Below, piece by piece: positions 367-64,000 of a DNA stretch of 64,000 nt. Both the position numbers and the translations under genes were made by a program. The first letter of the stretch is position 1, and every line of letters begins with the position of its first letter. The notes under the pieces were generated by a model that saw only the letters and a program-made list of their open reading frames with translations, had not been told where the DNA came from and did not search any database. Origin of the DNA: Micrasema longulum (lineage: Eukaryota > Arthropoda > Insecta > Trichoptera > Brachycentridae); NCBI GenBank assembly GCA_022494885.1, contig JAGVSM010003515.1, forward strand, positions 27,186-91,185, written 5' to 3'.

Positions 367-1639
367 TTAGATATTATATGAATGAAGTGCTGCAATCTCC
401 AAAATTTCCATAAATAAACGGAACGGCCAGCGTCGACTTGCTCGCGCGCATGAATGATCTCTGGTCATTTTGTCTCCTGTATCGACTGCCCACTTTGTTT
501 TATTATAATGCAATATAATCTCGGGTTTTCTGGATTCTGCCGAACTTATATTTGCATCGTTGAACTGTGTTGACAACAAAAGAACTGATTTATTTTTTTA
601 GGCAAATATGAAACTAATGTAATTTTATTTGTAAATCCAAATAAACTACTGCCTACTTCTCTAATTTTATTGGGTTGAAATTTAGACGGAATTTCGACGG
701 TTTTATTTCTGCGAAGCGTCCCTGTTAAGGTTAAACCATTATCTGATAATTTTTCGGCAAGAGGTATTGATGTGAAAAAATTATCAGTGGTAATTCCTCT
801 GTTTGACCCGAAATACAAATTAACCATATCATTTACTACGCGCTGTCCTTGATTTTGTTTCCTCGCATTGTTAACTTGGCTAGTGTAAACTTGCGTATTC
901 AAAGTGCAGGCAGTTTTCGAATCAGAAGCAGTCCAAATTTGCCGGGCTTACTTTTCATGTACACACGAAATCGATATTTCCCTCTAAAAACTGCAAGCCT
1001 CTCGTCTACAATAATATGAAGTCCGGGAGAATACATTGTTTTACAAGAATTTGTAAATTGAGTCCAAATTGATTTTATAGCTTCCAGTTTATGTCCACTC
1101 ACCTGAATCTTTCTTCCCTCGATTCGCGGTCATCAAATCGGATGCTACTAAAATGTGTATAAATCTGTCTCGAGACATTGCCGCTGTAAAAAATGGTTGT
1201 CTAAAAAGTATTTCATTCATCCTAAGTTCATTTAATTGCAGTTTTAGTGTTCGATTTCTCCCGGATCCTAATAATATAGCAACAAATGCGTGCATTTCAT
1301 CCACATTTATCGGTTGGGCATTTCTTTTTCGGTCAATCGGAGAAATCGCGCAGTGAGCATTGGTATTTTCGCATATTTCTTCAACCATCTCTCTTGTTAT
1401 AAAAGCAGAAAGCATGTCTTTAATTGAAGTAATATTTGTACCTTCATTCCGTAAACCAGAGTTTTCTGTTAAAATATTGTGAGCACGGCGTCTTGAAGCT
1501 GATGGGAGTATTGAGCTCCATTCCATTCCGGATTTAGATCAATATAAATAATTTCATTACTATCACATTCATTAATATTTACACTATCATCGCTCTCACT
1601 TTCTTCGCACTCACTATCAGATGAACTTCTTTCGCCCAT
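367..1639 (-). pseudogene. piggyBac transposase relic
   Basis: The relic starts with an acidic N-terminus (ATG at 1639, reading MGERSSSDSECEESESDD), as is usual for piggyBac-like transposases. It continues in shifted frames through DEMHAFVAILLGSGRNR, then HIIVDERLAVFRGKYRF (a segment with a catalytic-region Asp), then NLYFGSNRGITTDNFFTSIP and the final segment RRWPFRLFMEILEIAALHSY. At least three frameshifts separate these blocks. The total, about 1.27 kb, is shorter than the usual roughly 1.7 kb, so there are internal deletions. It cannot encode an active enzyme. Another relic of the same superfamily lies at 38490-38950. Confidence 0.85.
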
Positions 1640-6410: not shown

Positions 6411-7993
6411 TCATTCCACGTTTGGTAAGATATTTATTTTAAGTAATTTTACAGATAGAACTTTCTCACCAATGTGATTTAAAGAATGACGAATTAAGTC
6501 CTCTTTTTTTAAAAACGTGTTTCCACAATCTGAGCATGATAATGGTTTCTCACCGGTATGAGTTGAGATATGAAGTTTCAAAGACACTTTCCGAGAACAT
6601 TTAAATTGGCACTCTGAACATGAAAATGGTTTCTCACCGAAATGAGTTGACATGTGTAATTTTAAATGACCTTTTTGAGAACATTTAAATTCGCACTTTA
6701 GACATGAGAATGGTTTCTCGCCGGTATGAGTTAAGATGTGAAGTTTTAAAGACGGTTTCCGAGAACACTTATATTTGCACTCTGAACATGAGAATGGTTT
6801 CTCGCTGGTATGAGTTAAGATGTGAAATTTTAAAGATTTTTTCCGGGAACATTTATATTGGCACTCTGAACATGAGAATGGTTTCTCACCTGTATGAGTA
6901 AACATATGTGATTCTAAATCTCTCTTAAATAAACATTTATACTGGCAAACTGAGCAAGAAAATGGTTTCTCACGAGTGTGAGTTAAGATGTGATGTTTTA
7001 AAGACACTTTCCGAGAACATTTGTATTGACACTCTGAACATGAAAATGGTTTCTCACAGTTATGCGTTAACATGTGTGATTTTAAATAATCTTTTTGAGA
7101 ACATTTAAATTCGCATTTTAGACACGAGAATGGTTTCTCGCCGGTATGGGTTAAGATGTGACGTTTTAAAGACTTTTCCCGAGAACACTTATATTTGCAC
7201 TCTGAACATAAAAATGGTTTCTCATCTGTATGAGTGAACATGTGTGATTTTAAATTTGTTTTGCTTAAACATTTATATTGGCACTCTAAACATGAAAATG
7301 GTTTCTCACCTGTATGAGTGAACATGTGTGATTGTAAATTTCTTTTGCTTGAACATTTATATTGGCACTCTAAACATGAAAATGGTTTTTCACCGTTATG
7401 AGTTAACATGTGTGATTGTAAATTACGTTTTTCAGAACATTTAAATTCGCACTTAAGACATGAGAATGGTTTCTCGCCGGTATGAGTTAAGAAGTGAAAT
7501 TTTAAAGATTTTTTCCGGGAACATTTATATTGGCACTCTGAACATGAGAATGGTTTCTCACCTGTATGAGTGAACATATGTGATTCAAAATCTCTCTTAA
7601 ATAAACATTTATACTGGCACTCTAAACACGAAAACGGTTTTTCACCGGTATGAGTTAGCATGTGTGAATTTAAATTACCTTTTTTAGAAAATTTATATTC
7701 GCACTTTAGACATGAAAACGGTTTCTCGCCGGTATGAGTTGACATGTGAAGTTTTAATGCCGCTTTCCGAGAACATTTATATTGGCACTCCGAACATGAA
7801 AATGGTTTCTCACCGTTATGAGTTAGCATGTGTAATTTTAAATATCCTTTTTTAGAACATTTAAATTCGCACTTTAGACATGAGAATGGTTTCTCGCCGG
7901 TATGAGTTAAGATGTGTGATTCCAAATAACTCTTTTTCGGACATGTATATTGGCACTCTAAGCATTTGAAATATTCCTGGCTTGCTGTTATAC
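6411..7993 (-). CDS. ZF1 exon 2: 18-finger C2H2 array
   Basis: The 3' coding exon of ZF1. It starts after an acceptor TTGTTCTAG|GT on the minus strand and joins in phase 1 to the donor of 12054-12315, giving ...S-S-ITASQEYFKC. I count 18 C2H2 fingers of form C-x2-C-x[YF]KC-x6-L-x2-H-x3-H. Linkers are TGEKP with variants NGEKP, TDEKP, NCEKP, TREKP, TSEKP and FGEKP. Most fingers have Cys where the classical core Phe sits; finger 4 keeps Phe. The last finger is different (SDCGNTFLKKEDLIRHSLNH), followed by a tail ending NILPNVE. ZF1 is the only gene here that keeps that finger. The pair FKRD/RKKS occurs twice (fingers 5-6 and 13-14), so blocks of fingers have duplicated. The product should be a nuclear DNA-binding protein; its target is unknown. 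Confidence 0.88.
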
Positions 7994-12053: not shown

Positions 12054-12315
12054 TTGAGGCTTTTTTATGTTGAAGAGATGAATCCGAACACTCTTGTTTA
12101 ATGTTAGGATAGTCAATATCAATCTCTGTGAAGATCATTATATCGCTGGTTATCCTAGGCAGGTCAGTACTGGTCCCCGGCTCAGCCTTCACGGCAGCTA
12201 CACCCGGCTCCTCGCTGCTGCGGGGCCGTGGCGCCCCTTCCCCAGCCTGGAGAATATCTCCTTCTACATCGCTAGTCCCCGGTTCAGCTTTTATCTTCAA
12301 TGGAGCGAATTCCAT
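12054..12315 (-). CDS. ZF1 exon 1: SUMO-motif N-terminal exon (type A)
   Basis: First coding exon of ZF1, 262 nt (87 codons plus one base), ending at the donor TCAA|GTAAGT and so in phase 1. The ATG at 12315 begins MEFAPLKIKAEPGTSDVEGD. Twelve further codons upstream in the same frame are part of an untranslated leader: a good acceptor TTTTCCAG|GATC puts the exon start at 12347, so at least one non-coding 5' exon probably exists. The exon has two KAEP motifs (IKAE, VKAE) and a third SUMO consensus, IKQE, near the end; acidic stretches lie between. It is almost identical in length and sequence to the ZF6 exon 61355-61616, and homology extends into the intron and about 100 bp upstream. No known N-terminal domain is visible. 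SUMO attachment is predicted from the motif only. Confidence 0.78.
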
Positions 12316-12449: not shown

Positions 12450-13440
12450 TCGTTTTAACAACGAGATTTCTAAACCACCCCACTGGGATTGCGAACAGGA
12501 CCCGGGGACGGTGTTGTCTTGCCACATATTTGTCGAGTGATTTTGAATAGTGTTTTGGAGTCATTTCTGCGGGATGCCTCTTCTGCTGCATTTATTTGCG
12601 AATCCAAGAAGCGACGCTTGTCCGTGCGAGCAAATCTTTTGACAATTTTGTCTTGGCATCGGTAGTTGTTTCTAATAACAATAATTTGATCGGGGTCTGT
12701 TTCACTGTCTCTCAATACTTTCAGTTTTGCTCGCTTTTCAATTTCATTCCAAGTATCATTTGACATCCACCGCGGACGCACACTCTCCTTAGCTCCTAGA
12801 ACAGACTTTGCGGACAGCATAATTGAAGTCTTGAAAGTTTGCCGCTGACTCTCAATGTAGTCCGTCGGAGGTAAAGAGTTGAGACCACCATTTGTGTTTT
12901 CTAGATTTTCTCGAACACTACTGTTGGAACGGTGTACGGTGGCGGGAATTTTTAGCTTTTCAATATCGATGGCCTTTGGCATATTAGGTTTAGCATTGCA
13001 GTGGAGCTTAAGGCGAATTTTTCCAACGAGCAGCTCGTGGTCGCTGTATAAATCAGCTCCGCGGTAAACCCTAACGTCAAGGAATTCCCACCTGTGTGTT
13101 GAGCTGTAGAGTAGGTGGTCAATTTGCGATTTTGCGCGTCAATTTGGCGAGGTCCATGTATACTTGTGAATGTTCTTAAGAGGAAATATAGTACCGCCAA
13201 TGGTGAGCTCATTTAAAGTAGCCAATTCTATGAGTTTCACACCATTGTCATTTGTACCACTGAGACCATGATTCCCCATGATTGCGGATCTTACTATGGA
13301 GGTATCCCCTACCCTAGCATCAGCGTCACCGATGACAACTACACAGTCTGGTCTGGGTAACCTAGATAAGGCAGAGTGAAGCAAATCATAAAAATGGTCT
13401 TTAGCAGAGGCGTCTGCATCCTTTATTATTACAATGTCTA
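12450..13440 (-). pseudogene. RTE-type LINE relic, endonuclease region
   Basis: Minus-strand fragments in shifted frames form an apurinic-type endonuclease. VVVIGDADARVGDTS replaces the usual GDFN motif. Then come SAIMGNHGLSGTNDNG, LNELTIGGTIFPLKNIHKYT and a YSDHELLVGKI segment with the SDH motif. The linker region follows (SKTLFKITRQICGKT). It is inserted about 100 bp 5' of the ZF1 coding exon. The matching position upstream of ZF6 lacks it. Confidence 0.8.
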
Positions 13441-21458: not shown

Positions 21459-22101
21459 ATGGATAAACCGGGGACTGGTGATATAAAAGGAGATATTCTC
21501 CATACTAGGGAAAAGGGTTCATCTTACAAAGGCAAGGAGCCAGGTGTCGCTATCGTGAAGGCTGAACCGGGAACTAGCGGTATTGAAGGAGATATTCTCT
21601 ATCCTGAAGTTAAGGCGTCATGGTCTTACAAAACTGAGAAACCAGGAGTTTCTACCGTAAAGGCCGAACCCGAGACTAGTGACGTAGATGGAGATATTCT
21701 CTATATTGGGGAAAAAACGTCGTTGCCTTACAAAAGCGACGAGCCAAGTGTTGCTACCGTGAAAGCTGAGCCCGAGACTAGTTATATAGACGAAGGTATT
21801 CTATGTACAGGGCAAAATACGTCATGGCCTTACAAAGTAAAGGAGCCGGGTGTTGCTATCGTGAAGGCTGAGCCGGGGACTTATGATATTAAAGAAGATA
21901 TTCTCCATTCTGAAGTAAATGCGTTATTGTCTTACAAAAGCGAGAAGCCAGGTATTGCTACCGTTGAGGCCGAACCAGGGACCAGTACTGACCAGCTTTG
22001 GAAAACTTGTGAAATAAGAATCCACTCAGAGATGGATATTGATCATCCTGACATTAAACAGCAATGTTTGAATTCCTCTCGTCACAATGAAATCACATCA
22101 A
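21459..22101 (+). CDS. ZF2 exon 1: SUMO-motif N-terminal exon (type B)
   Basis: First coding exon of ZF2, 643 nt, phase 1 at the donor ATCAA|GTAAGT. It starts at ATG 21459 (MDKPGTGDIKGD), preceded by the acceptor GATCTGCAG (exon start 21431) that ZF3 and ZF5 share. The family's opening MEIA...IKAE segment is missing: the ATG arises inside the sequence that aligns with it. Repeats of 34 residues follow, with VKAEP four times; a fifth has become VEAEP, losing the lysine. The terminal IKQE of type A is IKQQ here. Each repeat has the form VKAEPxTSDxxxDIL then a K/S-rich, P-Y-K spacer. The exon and the first 150 bp of intron closely match ZF5. Confidence 0.78.
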
Positions 22102-22494: not shown

Positions 22495-23022
22495 TTTACA
22501 TTTACATATCTATTCTAAAAGTTTTAGTCCCAACACTTATGTATGGAAGTGAAACATGAAACTGGCAGAGGAAGGATGAAAGCCGAGTGAACGCGGTTGA
22601 AATGCGATCTCTTAGACGAATCTGTGGGAAATCAATGTATGGCAGGGTTACGAATGATGAAATCAGGCGAGAGTGTAAATCTGAGTCAAGTATAATTGAA
22701 AAGATTAAGAAAGGGTATCTGAGATGGTTTGGTCTCGTAGAACGAATGGACGACGAAAGAATGGTAAAACAAGTATATATGGCGAAAATGAACGGCACCG
22801 TGAGACGAGGACAACCAAGGAAGACGTGGCATGATCAGATAAACCAAAATCTTAAGTCTGGTCGTGTCGAAAGTAGACAGAACCGAAGGGCATGCATGAC
22901 AGGATGTATGAATGTGGAAGAGACTAGGATTGTATGCCAGGATCGACGTGTGTGGCGGTCCATTCTCTCTGCCTACTCCTACGGGGAAATTGCGTGATGG
23001 TAGTAGTAGTAGTAGTAGTAGT
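22495..23022 (+). pseudogene. RTE-type LINE 3' end with (GTA)n tail, in ZF2 intron
   Basis: C-terminal part of the ORF: VNAVEMRSLRRICGKSMYGR, then IIEKIKKGYLRWFGLVERMD, then GQPRKTWHDQINQNLKSGR, ending SILSAYSYGEIA and a stop. The tail TGGTAGTAGTAGTAGTAGTA (to 23022) is a short tandem repeat of the kind that ends RTE-clade elements. Same strand as ZF2. Confidence 0.82.
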
Positions 23023-25171: not shown

Positions 25172-26298
25172 GTTCAAAAGCAATTCATTCCGTTGACAAA
25201 CCATTTTCATGCTCAGAGTGCCAATTCAAATGTTCTCGGAAAGACAATTTAAAATCTCATTTGTTGACTCACACCGGTGAGAAACCATTCTCATGCTCAG
25301 TGTGCCAGACAAATTTTTCACATAAGAGTACTTTGAAATCTCACATGTTAACTCATACCGGCGAGAAACCATTCTCATGCTCAGAATGCGAATTTAAATG
25401 TTCACAAAATAGTAATTTAAAATCACACATGTCAACTCACACTGGTAAGAAACCATTTTCATGTTCAGAGTGCCAATTGAAATGTTCATTTAAAAGTAAT
25501 TTGAAAACGCACATGTTAACTCATACCGGTGTGAAACCATTCTCATGCTCAGAGTGCCTATTTAAATGTTCACAAAAACATGATTTAGTATCACACATGT
25601 TGTTAACTCATACTGTTCGGAAATCATTCTCATGCATAAAGTGCCAATTTAAATGTTCACGGAAAGATAATTTAAAATCTCACATGTTGACTCACTCCGG
25701 TGAGAAACCATTTTCGTGCTCAGAGTGCCAGTTAAATTTTTCACATAAGAGTAGTTTGAAATCACACGTGTTAACTCACACCGGTGAGAAGCCATTCTCT
25801 TGCTCAGAATGCCAATTCAAATGTTCACAAAGGAGTAATTTGAAATCGCACATGTTAACTCATACCTGTGAGAAACCATTTTCATGTTCCGAGTGCCAAT
25901 TTAAATGTTCACAAAAACATAATTTTGTATCACATACGCTGTTATCTCATATTGGTCAGAAATCATTCTCATGCTTAGAATGTCAATTTAAATGTTCACG
26001 GAGAGATAATTTAAAATCTCACGTGTTGACTCACACCGGCGAGAAACCATTCTCGTGCCCAGAGTGCCAGTCAAATTTTTCACACAAGAGTAGTTTGAAA
26101 TCCCACATGTTAACTCACACCGGTGAGAAACCATTCTCTTGCTCACTGTGTCAATTTAAGTGTTCACAAAGGAGTAATTTGAAATCACACATGTCAACTC
26201 ACAACGGTGAGAAACCATTATCATGCTCAATGTGCAAATTTAATTGTTCACAAAAAATGCATTTGAAATCACACATGTTAACTCATCCTGGTGAGTAA
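25172..26298 (+). CDS. ZF2 exon 2: 13-finger C2H2 array
   Basis: 3' coding exon of ZF2. Acceptor TTTGTTTCAG|GTTC at 25171/25172; phase 1 joining gives ...S-SKAIHSVDKPFSCSEC. It has thirteen C2H2 fingers. A four-finger block recurs almost three times, with helix starts RKDN, HKSS, QRSN and QKHN. In two QKH fingers (5 and 9) the histidine spacing is H-x4-H (HMLLTH, HTLLSH). The HKSS fingers use Asn-Phe at the core, the others Lys-Cys. The frame ends at TAA 26296-26298, exactly where a linker lysine (TGEK) should be, and a decayed terminal finger follows in the 3' region. Likely a nuclear DNA-binding protein; target unknown. Confidence 0.88.
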
Positions 26299-32398: not shown

Positions 32399-32852
32399 AT
32401 GGAAATCGCTTCCGTGAATATAAAGGCTGAACTTGGGACTGGCGATCCAAAAGGAGATATTCTTCATGCTGAGGAAAAGGCGCCATGGCCTTACAAAACC
32501 GAGGAGTCAGGTATTGCTACCGTGAAGGCTGAACCGGGGACTAGCGATGTCCTCCGAATTGCGGAAAAAACTTCATGGCCTTTCAAAAGCGAGGAGCCAA
32601 GTGTTGTTTCCGTGAAGGCTGAACCTGGGACTAACGATATAGAAAGAGATACTCTTCGTACTGGGGAAAATACGTCACGGCCTTACAAAAGCGAGGAGCC
32701 AGCTGTTGCTACCGCGAAGGCTGAACCGGGGACCAGTACTGACCAGCCTAGAATAACCAGTGATATCATTATCTACACAGAGATGGATATTGATCATCCC
32801 GACATTAAACAGCAATGTTTGGACTCCTCTCGTCACAATGAAATCGCCTCAA
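32399..32852 (+). CDS. ZF3 exon 1: SUMO-motif N-terminal exon (type B)
   Basis: First coding exon of ZF3, 454 nt, phase 1 at donor CTCAA|GTAAGT. ATG 32399 opens MEIASVNIKAELGTGDPKGD. The acceptor GATCTGCAG puts the exon start at 32382. It contains IKAE, VKAE twice and a weaker AKAE, in 34-residue repeats; the second repeat is about four residues short (GTSDVLRIAEK). The conserved ending is TDQPRITSDIIIYTEMDIDH followed by PDIKQQC, so the last SUMO site of type A is lost. The donor context also permits read-through into the intron, which would add a hydrophobic run (FCCVLLFFCSF); splicing is better supported by comparison with the other five genes. Confidence 0.78.
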
Positions 32853-35077: not shown

Positions 35078-36051
35078 GTTCACAAGCAAGCCAGAAACAT
35101 TTTGAATCTTCGAAAAATCAGTCTAAGTTTTCTAAGAAGAGTTATCTAAAATCACACGACATATTAACTCATACCGGTGAGAAACCATTCTCGTGCACGG
35201 AGTGCCAATTTAAGTGTTCAGGAAAAAGTTATTTAAAATCACACATGTTAACTCATACCGGTGAAAAACTATTGTCATGCTCAGAATGCCAATTTAAATG
35301 TTTTTACAAAAGTAATTTGAAATCGCACATGTTAACTCATACCGGTGAGAGACCTTTCTCGTGCTCAGAGTGTCAATTTAAATGTTCGTTTAAAAGTAAT
35401 TTAAAATCACACATGTTAACTCACACCGGTGAGAAACCATTCTCATGCTTAGAGTGCCAATATAAATGTTCCCAAAAGAGAGATTTGCTGTTTCACATGT
35501 TAATACATACAGGTGAGAAACCATTCTCATGTTCAGAGTGCCAGTATAAATTTTTACGTAATAGTCATTTAAAAAGACACATGTTTACCCATACCGGTGA
35601 GAAACCATTCTCGTGCTCAGAGTGCCAATATAAATGTTCAAGAAAAGGCGCTTTAAAATTACACATGTTAACTCACGATGGTCAGAAACCATTATCGTGC
35701 TTACACTGCCCATATAAATGTTCACGCAAGAAAGATTTGCAATCACACATGTTTAAACATACCGGTGAGAAACCGTTCTCTTGCTCAGAGTGCCAATTCA
35801 AATGTTCAGGAAAAAGTTATTTAAAATCACACATGTTAAAACATACCGGCGAGGAACCATTTTCATGCTCAGAGTGCCAATTTAAATGTTCTTATAAAAG
35901 TAATTTTAAAAAGCACATGTTAACTCATACCGGTGAGAAACCATTATCATGCTCAGAGTGCCTGTATAAATGTTCGAGGAATGGTACTCTAAAACGTCAC
36001 ATGTTAACTCATACCGGCAAGAAACCTTTTTCATGTTCAAAGGCCAATTGA
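35078..36051 (+). CDS. ZF3 exon 2: C2H2 array, 3' frameshift
   Basis: 3' coding exon of ZF3. Acceptor TTTGTTTCAG|GTTC at 35077/35078; phase 1. It begins SSQASQKHFESSKNQSKFSK, which is a dead first finger: both zinc cysteines are replaced (Ser and Asn), and the histidines are H-x4-H. Ten intact fingers follow, with mostly TGEKP linkers and variants TGERP, DGQKP, TGEEP and TGKKP. The eleventh breaks at CSKAN and stops at 36049-36051: one base is missing relative to the repeated TGCTCAGAGTGCCAATTTAA (here TTCAAAGGCCAATTG). The frame after the lesion encodes the rest of that finger and the family's terminal finger, so a full-length protein would need the missing base. Confidence 0.87.
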
Positions 36052-41799: not shown

Positions 41800-42720
41800 C
41801 AACAAACCATCACGCCGTTTCCCCGTAAGGGTAGGCAGATCTTTGTATACAGATCTCGCTTCCTCTACATTCATACATCTTCTCATGCACGTGCGCCGAT
41901 TATTCCGACTTTTAACATGTCCATCTTCAAGTATTGTTGGATTTGGTCATGCCATGTCTTTCTCGGTCTTCCTCTATTTCTGCATCCATCAACATTCGCA
42001 TTGTAAATATTCTTAGCCGTTCTCTCGCTGTCCATTCGTTCTACATGTCCAAATCAGCGCAGAGCTCCTTTCTTGATTTTGTCGATAATGCTTGTCTCAG
42101 CCTTACAAAATATACGGATCTCTACATTTGTGCATCTATCGTACACAGTTTTACCACACATTCGCCCGAGAGATCGCATTTTGACAGCATTTAGCCTTCT
42201 TTCATCCTTGTTTCTCCAAATCCATACTTCGCTCCCATACATCAGGGTCGGGACCAGGACTCCGTTGTGAACTGCCGATTTTGCCTCTTGTGACAAACAT
42301 TTATTTGCCAAGGTCGATTTAAGTGCGCCGTTCACTCTGTTCCCGGCACTCACCCTCCTTTCAATATCTTTCTCAGTCATTCCATCCCTGGTAAACATAC
42401 TTCCCAGATACACAAATTCCTCTACTTGTTTTAGTATAACTCCATTCACAGTGATTTCACATTTAGTCATACTTTCATTTCTTTCAAAAACCATCACATT
42501 GGATGTATCCACGTTCATCAGCAAATGGCTTGGCTCCCTCGCATACAGCGTAGACCTTTGTTATCAAGAATTGCAGTTCCTCTTTGTTGTTAGCAAGAAG
42601 CACGGCATCGTCAGCATACAAAAGAAAATTGACATTTAAATCACCCATTTTTGCTCTCATTCTTAAGCCTTTCAGTTATTTCATGCGGTTATCGATATAC
42701 ACGTTGAACAGCCATGGTGA
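41800..42720 (-). pseudogene. RTE-type LINE reverse transcriptase, best copy in window
   Basis: The minus strand reads NVNFLLYADDAVLLANNKEE with an intact Y-A-D-D (42607-42618), then SNVMVFERNESMTKCEITVN, FVYLGSMFTRDGMTEKDIER, LVPTLMYGSEVWIWRNKDER and MCGKTVYDRCTNVE. The C-terminus has RKTWHDQ and CMNVEEARSV-like parts. About three frameshifts are present. The 5' third, including the endonuclease, is absent; 12450-13440 shows what a related endonuclease looks like. Confidence 0.85.
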
Positions 42721-43459: not shown

Positions 43460-44129
43460 ATGGAATTCGCTCCAGTGAATATTAAAGCTGAACCGGGGAC
43501 TGGCGATGTAGAAGAAGGTACTCTCCTTACTGGGAAATGGGCGCTACGTCCTCCCAGTGGCGAGAAGCCAGATATTGCTACCGTGAAGGCTGAACCAGAG
43601 ACTAGCGATGATAAAAGAGGTACTCTCCTTACTGGGGAATGGGCGCTACGTCACCCCAGTGGCGAGGAGCCAGATATTACTACCGTGAAGGCTGAACCAG
43701 AGACTAGCGATGATAAAGGAGGTACTCTCAATACTGGGGAAAGGGCGCTACGTCTCAGCAGTTGCGAGAAGCCATATATTGCTACCGTGAAGGCTGAACC
43801 AGAGACTAGCGATGATAAAGGAGGTACTCTTCTTACTGGGGAATGGGCGTTACGTCACCCCAGTGGCGAGGAGCCAGATATTACTACCGTGAAGGCTGAA
43901 CCAGAGACTAGCGATGTTGAAGGAGGTACTCTCCTTACTGGGGAAGGGGCGCTACGTCCTCCCAGTGGCGAGGAGCCAGATATTGCTACCGTGAAGGCTG
44001 AACCAGGGACCAGTACTGACCGGCCTAGGATAACCAGCGATATAAAGAACTTCACAGAGATTGATGTTGACTATCCCGACATTAAGCAAGAATGTTTGGA
44101 TCCCTCTCGTCAACATAAAATGGCTTCAA
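43460..44129 (+). CDS. ZF4 exon 1: longest SUMO-motif array (type A)
   Basis: First coding exon of ZF4, 670 nt, phase 1 at donor TTCAA|GTAAGT. The acceptor TTCATTTTCAG gives exon start 43443; ATG 43460 opens MEFAPVNIKAEPGTGDVEEG. Four exact-length 102-bp (34-residue) tandem units begin at 43577, 43679, 43781 and 43883; the next partial unit starts at 43985. There are seven hydrophobic-K-x-E sites: IKAE, VKAE five times and terminal IKQE. The unit has the form [AT]TVKAEPETSDDKxGTLLTGE...LRxPSGEEPDI. S/T residues just after each site are followed by acids, giving CK2-like S-D-x-E in some units. No known domain matches. Function as a SUMO or SUMO-partner scaffold is inferred. Confidence 0.8.
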
Positions 44130-44869: not shown

Positions 44870-45723
44870 GTTTACAAGCAAAACTGAATGTTTTCACCTG
44901 TTCAGAGTGTCAATATAAATGTTCCACGAAGAGCAAATTGGGATCGCACATGTTTACTCATACTGGTGAGAAACCATTCTCATGCTCAGAGTGCCAATAT
45001 AAATCTTCCCATAAGCGTAATTTAAAATTACACAGGTTAATTCACACTGGCGAAAAACCATTCTCATGCTCAGAGTGCCAATTTAAATGTTCACGAAAAG
45101 GAGATTTAAAATCACACATTTTATCTCACACTGGCGAGAAACGTTTCTCATGCCCAGAGTGCCCATATAAATGTTCACGAAAGAGAAATTTGCAACCACA
45201 CATGTATATTCATACCGGCGAGAAACCATTCTCATGCACACACTGCCAATTCAAATGCTCTCGAAAAGGAGTTTTGAAATCACACATTTCAACTCATACC
45301 GGTGAGAAACCATTCTCATGCTCAGACTGTCAATTCAAATGTTTACGGAAAGGAAATTTGAGAACACACATTTTATCTCATACCGGTGAGAAACCATTCT
45401 CATGCTCAAAGTGCCAATTCAAATTTTCACAGAAAAGTTCTTTAAAAAGTCACATGCTAATTCACACAGGTGTTAAACCATTCTCATGCTCGAAGTGTCA
45501 ATATAAATGTTTTCTTAAGAGAAATTTAAAACATCACATGTTAACTCATACCAGTGAGAAACCATTCTCATGCTCAGAGTGCGAATATAAATGTTCACTA
45601 AAGAGACATTTGGAGTCGCACATTTTTACTCATACAGGCGAGAAACCATTCTCATGCTCAGAGTGCAAATATAAATGTTCACAAAAGAGATCTTTGCAAT
45701 CACATGTTAAGTCACACCGGTGA
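44870..45723 (+). CDS. ZF4 exon 2: 10-finger C2H2 array
   Basis: 3' coding exon of ZF4. Acceptor TTTGTTTCAG|GTTT at 44869/44870; phase 1, giving S-LQAKLNVFTCSECQYKC. It has ten C2H2 fingers with TGEKP linkers and variants TGEKR, TGVKP and TSEKP. Finger 2 has Ser at the core Cys position (CQYKSSHK) and finger 7 the classical Phe. The last finger ends QSHVKSHR then TGA: two bases are missing relative to CACACATGTTAACTCAC, but the shifted reading still gives H-x3-H, so this finger may fold. The terminal SDCGNTF finger is absent, replaced about 10 bp downstream by a repeat A copy. The intron is only 740 bp. Confidence 0.87.
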
Positions 45724-53586: not shown

Positions 53587-54151
53587 ATGGAAATAGCTTT
53601 CGTGGATATTAAGATTGAACCAGGGAACGGCGATGTAGGGGATATTCTCCATACTGGAGAAGAGGCGCCATGGCCTTACAAAAACGAGGAGCTGGATGTT
53701 GCTACCGTGAAAGCTGAACCGGGGACTAGTGATATAGAAGGAGATATTCTCCATACTGGGGAAAATAAGTTTTCCCCTTACATAAGCGAGGAGTCAGGTG
53801 TTGTTACTGTGAAAGCTGAACCGGGGACTAGCAATATTGGAGAAGATATTCTTCTTACTAAAAAAGAGGTGTCATGGCTTTACAAAAGCGAGGAACCAAA
53901 TGTTGCTACTGTAAAAGCTGAACCGAGGACTAGCGATATCGAAAGTGATATTCTCCTTTCTAAAGAAAAGGCGTCGTGGTCTTTTAAAAGCGAAGAGCCT
54001 GGTGTTGCTACCGCCAAGGCTAAACCAGGGACCAGTACTGACCAACTTTGGATAACCAGTGGTATAATGATCCACACAGATGTGGATATTGATCATCCTG
54101 ACATTAAACAGCAATGTTTGGATTCCTCTCGTCACAATGAAATCGCCGCAA
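53587..54151 (+). CDS. ZF5 exon 1: SUMO-motif N-terminal exon (type B)
   Basis: First coding exon of ZF5, 565 nt, phase 1 at donor CGCAA|GTAAGT. ATG 53587 opens MEIAFVDIKIEPGNGDVGDI. The acceptor GATCTGCAG (exon start 53570) is the same as in ZF2 and ZF3. Sites are IKIE and VKAE three times; the last repeat reads AKAKP, so it has lost the acceptor pattern, and the end is IKQQ as in other type B genes. The 34-residue repeats carry the spacer form PYKxEE or YKSEEP. Closest relative: ZF2, including the start of the intron. Confidence 0.78.
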
Positions 54152-54735: not shown

Positions 54736-55763
54736 GTTCACAAGTGAGACAGAAATATTTTGCCTGTTCCGAATGTCAATACAGGTGTCTAAAGAAGAGC
54801 AGATTGGCATCTCACATGTTCACTCATACCGCTGAGAAGCCATTATCTTGCTCAGAGTGCCAATTTAAATGCTCGCAGAAAGGTGCTTTAAAGTCGCATA
54901 TGCTCACTCACACCGGTGGGAAACCCTTTTCATGCTTAGAGTGCAAATTCAAATGTTTACGAAAGAGAGATTTGAAACCCCACATGTTAACTCATACCGG
55001 TGAGAAGCCATTCTCATGCCCTGAGTGCCAGTACAAATGTTCACAAAAAGGGCATTTGAAATCACATATGTCAACTCATACCAATGACCAACCATTCGTA
55101 TGCTCAGAGTGCAAATTTAAATGTTCGCGAAAAGATAACTTAAAATTACATATGTTTACTCATACCGGTGTGAAATCATTCTCATGCTTAGAGTGCCAAT
55201 TTAAATGTTCGCAGAAAGGTTCTTTGAAATCACACATGCTAACGCATACCGGTGAGAAACCATTCTCATGCTCTGAGTGTCAATTTAAATGTTCACTTAA
55301 AAATCATTTGAAATCGCACATGTTAACTCATACTGGTGAGAAACCTTTCTCATGCCTTGAGTGCCAATTTAAATGTTCACGAAGAGATAATTTAAAATTA
55401 CACATTTTAACTCATACTGGAGAGAAACGATACTCATGCTTAGAGTGCCCATTTAAATCTTCAACAAAGAATAATTTGAATAGGCACATGTTAACCCATA
55501 CCGGTGAGAAACCGTTCTCATGCTCAGAGTGCCAATTTAAATGTTCGCAGAAAGGTGCTTTGAAATCACACATGTTGACTCATTCTGGTAAGAAACCATT
55601 CTCATGCTTAGAGTGCCAATATAAATGTTCGCAAAAGAGTAATTTGAAATCACACATGTTGAACCATACCGGTGAGAAACCATTCTCGTGCTCAGAGTGC
55701 CAATACAAATGTTCTCGGAAAAGGGATTTGAATACACACATGTTGATTCATACTGGCGAGTAA
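54736..55763 (+). CDS. ZF5 exon 2: 12-finger C2H2 array
   Basis: 3' coding exon of ZF5. Acceptor TTTGTTTCAG|GTTC at 54735/54736; phase 1, giving S-SQVRQKYFACSECQYRC. It has twelve C2H2 fingers. Linkers are TGEKP with variants TAEKP, TGGKP, TNDQP, TGVKS, TGEKR and SGKKP. Helix starts QKGA (fingers 2 and 10) and RxDN (5 and 8) recur. Finger 9 has Ser at the usual core Cys position. The frame stops at TAA 55761-55763, the same linker-lysine position as in ZF2, and a decayed terminal finger follows. The fingers are otherwise intact, so a shortened protein is plausible. Confidence 0.88.
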
Positions 55764-61354: not shown

Positions 61355-61616
61355 ATGGAATTCGCTCCATTGAATATAAAGGCTGAACCGGGGACTGGCG
61401 ATGTAGAAGGAGATATTCTCCAGGCCGGGGAAGGGGCGCCACGGCCCCGCAGCAGCGAGGAGCCGGCTGTTGCTGCCGTGAAGGCTGAACCGGGGACCAG
61501 TGCTGGCCGGCCTAGGATAACCAGCGATATAATGATCTTCACAGAAATTGATGTTGACTATCCTGACATTAAACAAGAATGTTTGGATTCCTCTCTTCAA
61601 CATAAAAATGCCTCAA
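61355..61616 (+). CDS. ZF6 exon 1: SUMO-motif N-terminal exon (type A)
   Basis: First coding exon of ZF6, 262 nt, the same length as in ZF1; phase 1 at donor CTCAA|GTAAGT. ATG 61355 opens MEFAPLNIKAEPGTGDVEGD. Sites are IKAE, VKAE and IKQE; the last repeat has TSAGRPRITSD instead of TSTD. The acceptor used in ZF1 (TTTTCCAG) is TTTTCCGG here, while a new AG has appeared 15 bp downstream (TTAACAG, where ZF1 has TTAACAA). The exon would then start at 61338, still upstream of the ATG. It was probably copied recently from, or into, the ZF1 locus. Confidence 0.78.
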
Positions 61617-63271: not shown

Positions 63272-64000
63272 GTATAAGAACAAGCCAGAACAATTTTGAA
63301 TGCTCAGAGTGCCAATATAAATGTTCTCGGAAAGAGTCTTTAAAACGTCACATCTTAACTCATACTGATCAGAAACCATTCTCATGCTCAGAATGCAAAT
63401 TCAAATCTGTACATAAATATAATTTGAAAACACACATGTTAACTCATACCGGTGAGAAACCATTCGCATGCTCAGAGTGTCAATATAAATGTTCTCGGAA
63501 AGAGTCTTTAAAACGTCACACATTAACTCATACCGATCAGAAACCATTCTCATGCTCAGAATGCAAATTCAAATCTGTACATAAATGTAATTTGAAAACA
63601 CACATGTTAACTCATACTGGTAAAAAACCATTCACATGCTTAGAGTGCCAATTTAAATGTTCACGGAGTAATATTTTAAAAATGCACACGTTAACTCATA
63701 CCAGCGAGAAACCATTCTCATGCTCAGAGTGCCAATATAAATTTACACAAAAACGTCATTTGACAACACACATGTTAACTCATGCCGGTGAGAAACCATT
63801 CTCATGCTCAGAATGCAAATTTAAATCTGCGCATAAATGTTATTTGAAAACCCACATGTTAACTCATATCGGTGAAAAACCATACTCATGCTTAGAGTGC
63901 CCGTATAAATCTTTATGTATTAGTAATTTAAAAAGACACATGTTAACTCATACCGGTGATAAACTATACTCATGCTCAGAGTGCCAGTATAAATGTTCAA
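63272..64000 (+). CDS. ZF6 exon 2: C2H2 array, cut by window end
   Basis: 3' coding exon of ZF6, open to the last base. Acceptor TTTGTTTCAG|GTAT at 63271/63272; phase 1, giving S-IRTSQNNFECSECQYKC. Eight complete C2H2 fingers and the start of a ninth are visible. Fingers 1-2 and 3-4 are near-identical copies of a two-finger unit (RKESLKRH and VHKxNLKTH), both pairs joined by the unusual linker TDQKP. Four fingers have Ser at the usual core Cys position (2, 4, 7 and 8) and one has Phe (6). Whether the terminal finger survives cannot be seen. Confidence 0.87.

Follow-up and report, generated by a model that had tools for sequence, protein, structure and literature searches.

The 64-kb window analyzed here, the whole stretch of contig JAGVSM010003515.1 of the trichopteran Micrasema longulum under study, carries six neighboring zinc-finger gene models of two exons each, one of which ends at the window edge (Table 1). 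In each model an exon 1 made of repeat units is followed by a phase-1 intron and then by a C2H2 finger exon. The finger exons, in each of which 8 to 18 fingers were counted, are of the C2H2 class, with the pattern C-x2-C-x12-H-x3-H and TGEKPF linkers. The present study concerns exon 1, whose unit of ~34 residues (102 bp) bears V/I-K-A-E-P at its end. Such repeats had been described in all six genes by a sequence-only reading of the window, and our analysis confirms that description in almost every detail.

The motif psi-K-x-E (a large hydrophobic residue, K, any residue, E) is present in 21 of 24 unit cores and in three of the six tails. Altogether, the six exon 1s contain 26 such motifs, compared with 1.6 expected, while the reversed motif occurs once; shuffled sequences agree. 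Thus, the earlier statement that the motif density is far above chance holds, and the shuffles together with the reversed motif rule out chance or composition as the source of the count. In 17 of the 26 motifs the strict synergy control (SC) form is found, that is, a SUMO motif with P or G flanks. The spacing from core to core is 30 to 34 residues throughout, and variants occur among the first cores (IKIEP, IKAEL) and in the type-A tail (IKQEC). At position +5 from the lysine, 20 of the 21 intact unit cores carry a threonine, which is not followed by proline. This is the phosphosite position of the phosphorylation-dependent SUMO motif (PDSM), which has a phosphoserine, a proline-directed one, where the units have T.

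Motif counts alone cannot exclude a chance motif that was subsequently duplicated, because copying one motif yields many, and silent and amino acid changes were therefore compared for each codon column. The comparison used the 19 units with a full upstream part; the five first cores, which no unit precedes, and the six tails were excluded. The pairwise ratio of nonsynonymous to synonymous change (dN/dS) was 0.04 for the five core codons and 1.04 for the other 29, in units that were located by a core pattern permitting only some residues, a possible bias toward conservation. The regular spacing of successive cores leaves no room for a decayed unit that had been missed in between. When changes were reconstructed by parsimony on a FastTree tree, the core showed 16 synonymous and 4 amino acid changes and the rest 47 and 140, respectively (Fisher P = 2e-6). 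The psi-K-A-E-P core is the most constrained of all five-codon windows in the unit, and only 0.03% of random draws of five columns were as low. By residue, silent and amino acid changes numbered ~4 and 1 for K, 3 and 1 for E, and 5 and 0 for P; core P and A are unchanged in 19 of 19 units. The core thus has many silent and few amino acid changes, and the unit is for the most part a nearly neutral spacer with a protected SUMO core. Outside the core, L10 of the G-D-I-L stretch (unit column 10 of each of the six arrays, for example window positions 43523-43525) is likewise invariant in all 19 units, with ~5 silent changes, a conservation that SUMO attachment does not explain.

These data bear directly on three other views of exon 1. 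One is that a linker harbors a minisatellite of in-frame 102-bp units under no selection, with the SUMO motif copied as a passenger. The contrast between core and remainder makes this the least credible view, and that contrast persists among the more diverged type-B units taken alone (dN/dS 0.04 for the core, 0.73 for the rest); among type-A units the core has no amino acid changes at all, and the rest has a dN/dS of 1.13. Sequence exchange between units of one gene could have occurred, but it would also have wiped out the silent differences that are observed. On the codon analysis, we reject the motif as a mere passenger of duplication. It is also improbable that the array is a degradation platform that sets protein level, whether through a SUMO-targeted ubiquitin ligase or through PETSDD as a PEST sequence. 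Outside the core the unit drifts nearly neutrally (0.73-1.13), and a PEST function is therefore hardly what selection keeps; a role in degradation that depends on SUMO may still exist. Finally, the exon-1 products contain 18-21% acidic residues and AlphaFold, run on the 223-residue product with an alignment of the six, gave a pLDDT below 50 for all residues and no confident fold, as might be expected of an activation domain; however, the strongest constraint sits on the lysine-containing core rather than on any arrangement of acidic or aromatic residues, which makes activation very unlikely as the role of exon 1. The low AlphaFold confidence weakly suggests that the array may be disordered. 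A Pfam scan of all six exon-1 products yielded no family at cut-off, KRAB, ZAD, BTB, and SCAN included, in line with the earlier proposal of a design that needs no KRAB or ZAD domain.

To place the array among other finger proteins, 120 proteins were fetched (P0001-P0120) and 70 non-redundant poly-C2H2 N-termini were counted. In these 70 taken together, psi-K-x-E is ~4-fold above expectation, while its reverse falls short of the expected count; in the 20 arthropod N-termini it occurs 41 times against 5.2 expected (8-fold), and its reverse 8 times against 5.0. An abundance of psi-K-x-E in the N-termini of poly-C2H2 proteins is a possible general rule, and the exon-1 array probably belongs to this wider pattern. 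A pipefish zinc-finger protein (P0064; Stigmatopora argus LOC144065533) also carries a tandem array, with PQIKEEEP and PLVKEEEP in residues 70-250, ahead of its C2H2 fingers. Its spacing is ~57 residues rather than ~34, comparison with the exon-1 products detected no sequence similarity, and the two arrays look convergent. The same sample informs the strongest alternative, in which K-A-E-P serves, without being modified, as a short linear docking motif for a co-regulator or an E2/E3 enzyme; repetition would provide avidity, and the resemblance to a SUMO site would be secondary. In its favor, P and A are constrained no less than K and E, beyond what the SUMO consensus needs, and L10 and an E-E-P stretch are also rather conserved. 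On the other hand, psi, K, and E are exactly the residues of the SUMO consensus, the first cores and the type-A tail vary, and psi-K-x-E abounds in other finger-protein N-termini, although just one of the 120 proteins contains K-A-E-P itself. On balance, we regard docking as unlikely.

We therefore favor, with a probability of roughly 0.6, a model in which exon 1 is a probably unfolded SUMO acceptor array of the synergy control type, spaced at ~34 residues and fixed to DNA by the fingers as a repression module. The gene structure, the motif array, the selection on the core, and the finding of no known domain are established here, whereas disorder, SUMO conjugation, readers, repression, and targets, which may be transposons, are inferred. 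In this model, the finger array would bind its target and Ubc9, alone or aided by a PIAS-type ligase, would place SUMO on the lysine of several V/I-K-A-E-P cores. SUMO-reading co-repressors, for which SetDB1, Mi-2/MEP-1, and Small-ovary-like proteins are insect candidates, would then bind the cluster of tags, silence the locus, and curb activation at places where multiple copies are bound next to each other. Tandem duplication alters how many unit cores are intact (two to six, plus the type-A tail), and this number would determine the strength. Transposons are suggested as targets solely by the general link between numbers of finger genes and retroelements described in PMC10547256. Several observations weigh against parts of the model. 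Sites have been lost in three of the six genes, with type-B genes lacking part of theirs; the link in PMC10547256 is not seen in dipteran flies; and within Hemiptera, repeat content is described as uncorrelated with the expansion of ZF271-like genes (PMC6444547). The SUMO platform envisaged by the sequence-only reading is partly supported: it gains from the constraint on the core, the strict SC forms, and the finding of no other domain, and is weakened by the lost type-B sites. Its choice of key residues is well supported, while its chemistry is a prediction.

Table 1. Exons of the six zinc-finger gene models, and other open reading frames (ORFs), in the window
Feature	Position	Strand	Remark
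Exon 1	43460..44129	+	
Listed stretch inside this exon 1	43487..44010	+	
Finger exon of same gene	44870..45723	+	
Exon 1	12054..12315	-	
Finger exon of same gene	6411..7993	-	
Exon 1	21459..22101	+	
Finger exon of same gene	25172..26298	+	
Exon 1	32399..32852	+	
Finger exon of same gene	35078..36051	+	
Exon 1	53587..54151	+	
Finger exon of same gene	54736..55763	+	
Exon 1	61355..61616	+	
Finger exon of same gene	63272..64000	+	at window end
ORFs	546-1538	-	presumably a broken piggyBac-type transposase, by resemblance
ORF	12470-13138	-	presumably a non-LTR retrotransposon protein piece, by resemblance; within or between finger genes
ORF	22560-22997	+	as above
ORF	42054-42560	-	as above

The array can be compared with several known systems. 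The SC motif, a P/G-flanked SUMO consensus that caps activity where several copies of a factor bind, is described in GR, PR, Nurr1, SF-1, and the Kruppel-type ZBP-89 (PMC3554661, PMC3373386), and the exon-1 cores match it at the level of sequence. GR is described as having three SUMO sites, two of them N-terminal, and PR one N-terminal site, whereas an exon 1 here can hold as many as seven, arranged in tandem at a regular spacing of ~34 residues, in a multigene cluster. The sequence-only reading held that no domain of this form had been described; this overlooks the SC motif, and N-termini rich in psi-K-x-E prove to be common among other poly-C2H2 proteins, the pipefish one with its tandem array included. 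The claim of a wholly new module is too strong: the array is a tandem, multigene version of a known motif. The FiNZ-ZNF genes of cyprinid fish resemble the present cluster in being lineage-specific poly-finger genes in which a single finger exon comes after one N-terminal exon that is short and rich in E (PMC10547256). By that description, FiNZ is set apart as a 28-residue stretch unique to cyprinids and not presented as a tandem array; its mechanism of repression is left open, and the main text makes no mention of SUMO. The proposed silencing order is shared with KRAB-ZNF/KAP1 and with Drosophila Bonus or Panoramix, in which a guided factor leads via SUMO to SetDB1 or Small ovary and silencing (PMC10672805, PMC9406493). 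However, KRAB is a domain that recruits KAP1, while here the DNA binder itself would bear the SUMO sites.

The hemipteran ZF271-like and APEZ expansions are, by description, likewise made up of poly-C2H2 genes that change fast, and clusters of 4-8 are formed by some of them (PMC6444547). The Oncopeltus genome paper (PMC6444547) describes >115 ZF271-like proteins, notes that those of Oncopeltus and the aphid have no KRAB or other known domain and that insects have no direct KAP-1 ortholog, and urges a search for other interaction partners; the word SUMO does not occur in its main text, nor does a SUMO array for these proteins. An array in which the SUMO site is mainly what selection keeps offers an answer that is concrete and testable, with the SUMO tag itself as the effector. 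The genes of the present cluster may silence DNA through many displayed SUMO tags in place of a classical repressor domain. More tentatively, in animals that lack KRAB/KAP1, lineage-expanded poly-C2H2 proteins might use repeatedly arisen N-terminal arrays of SUMO sites, tuned in length by tandem duplication, as a general effector, with these six genes as a clear case and the 8-fold arthropod excess as a wider trace. If the SUMO-array model is true, new silencers can arise without the invention of a domain, and the cluster provides a natural series, from three to seven psi-K-x-E sites, for relating SUMO number to silencing strength.
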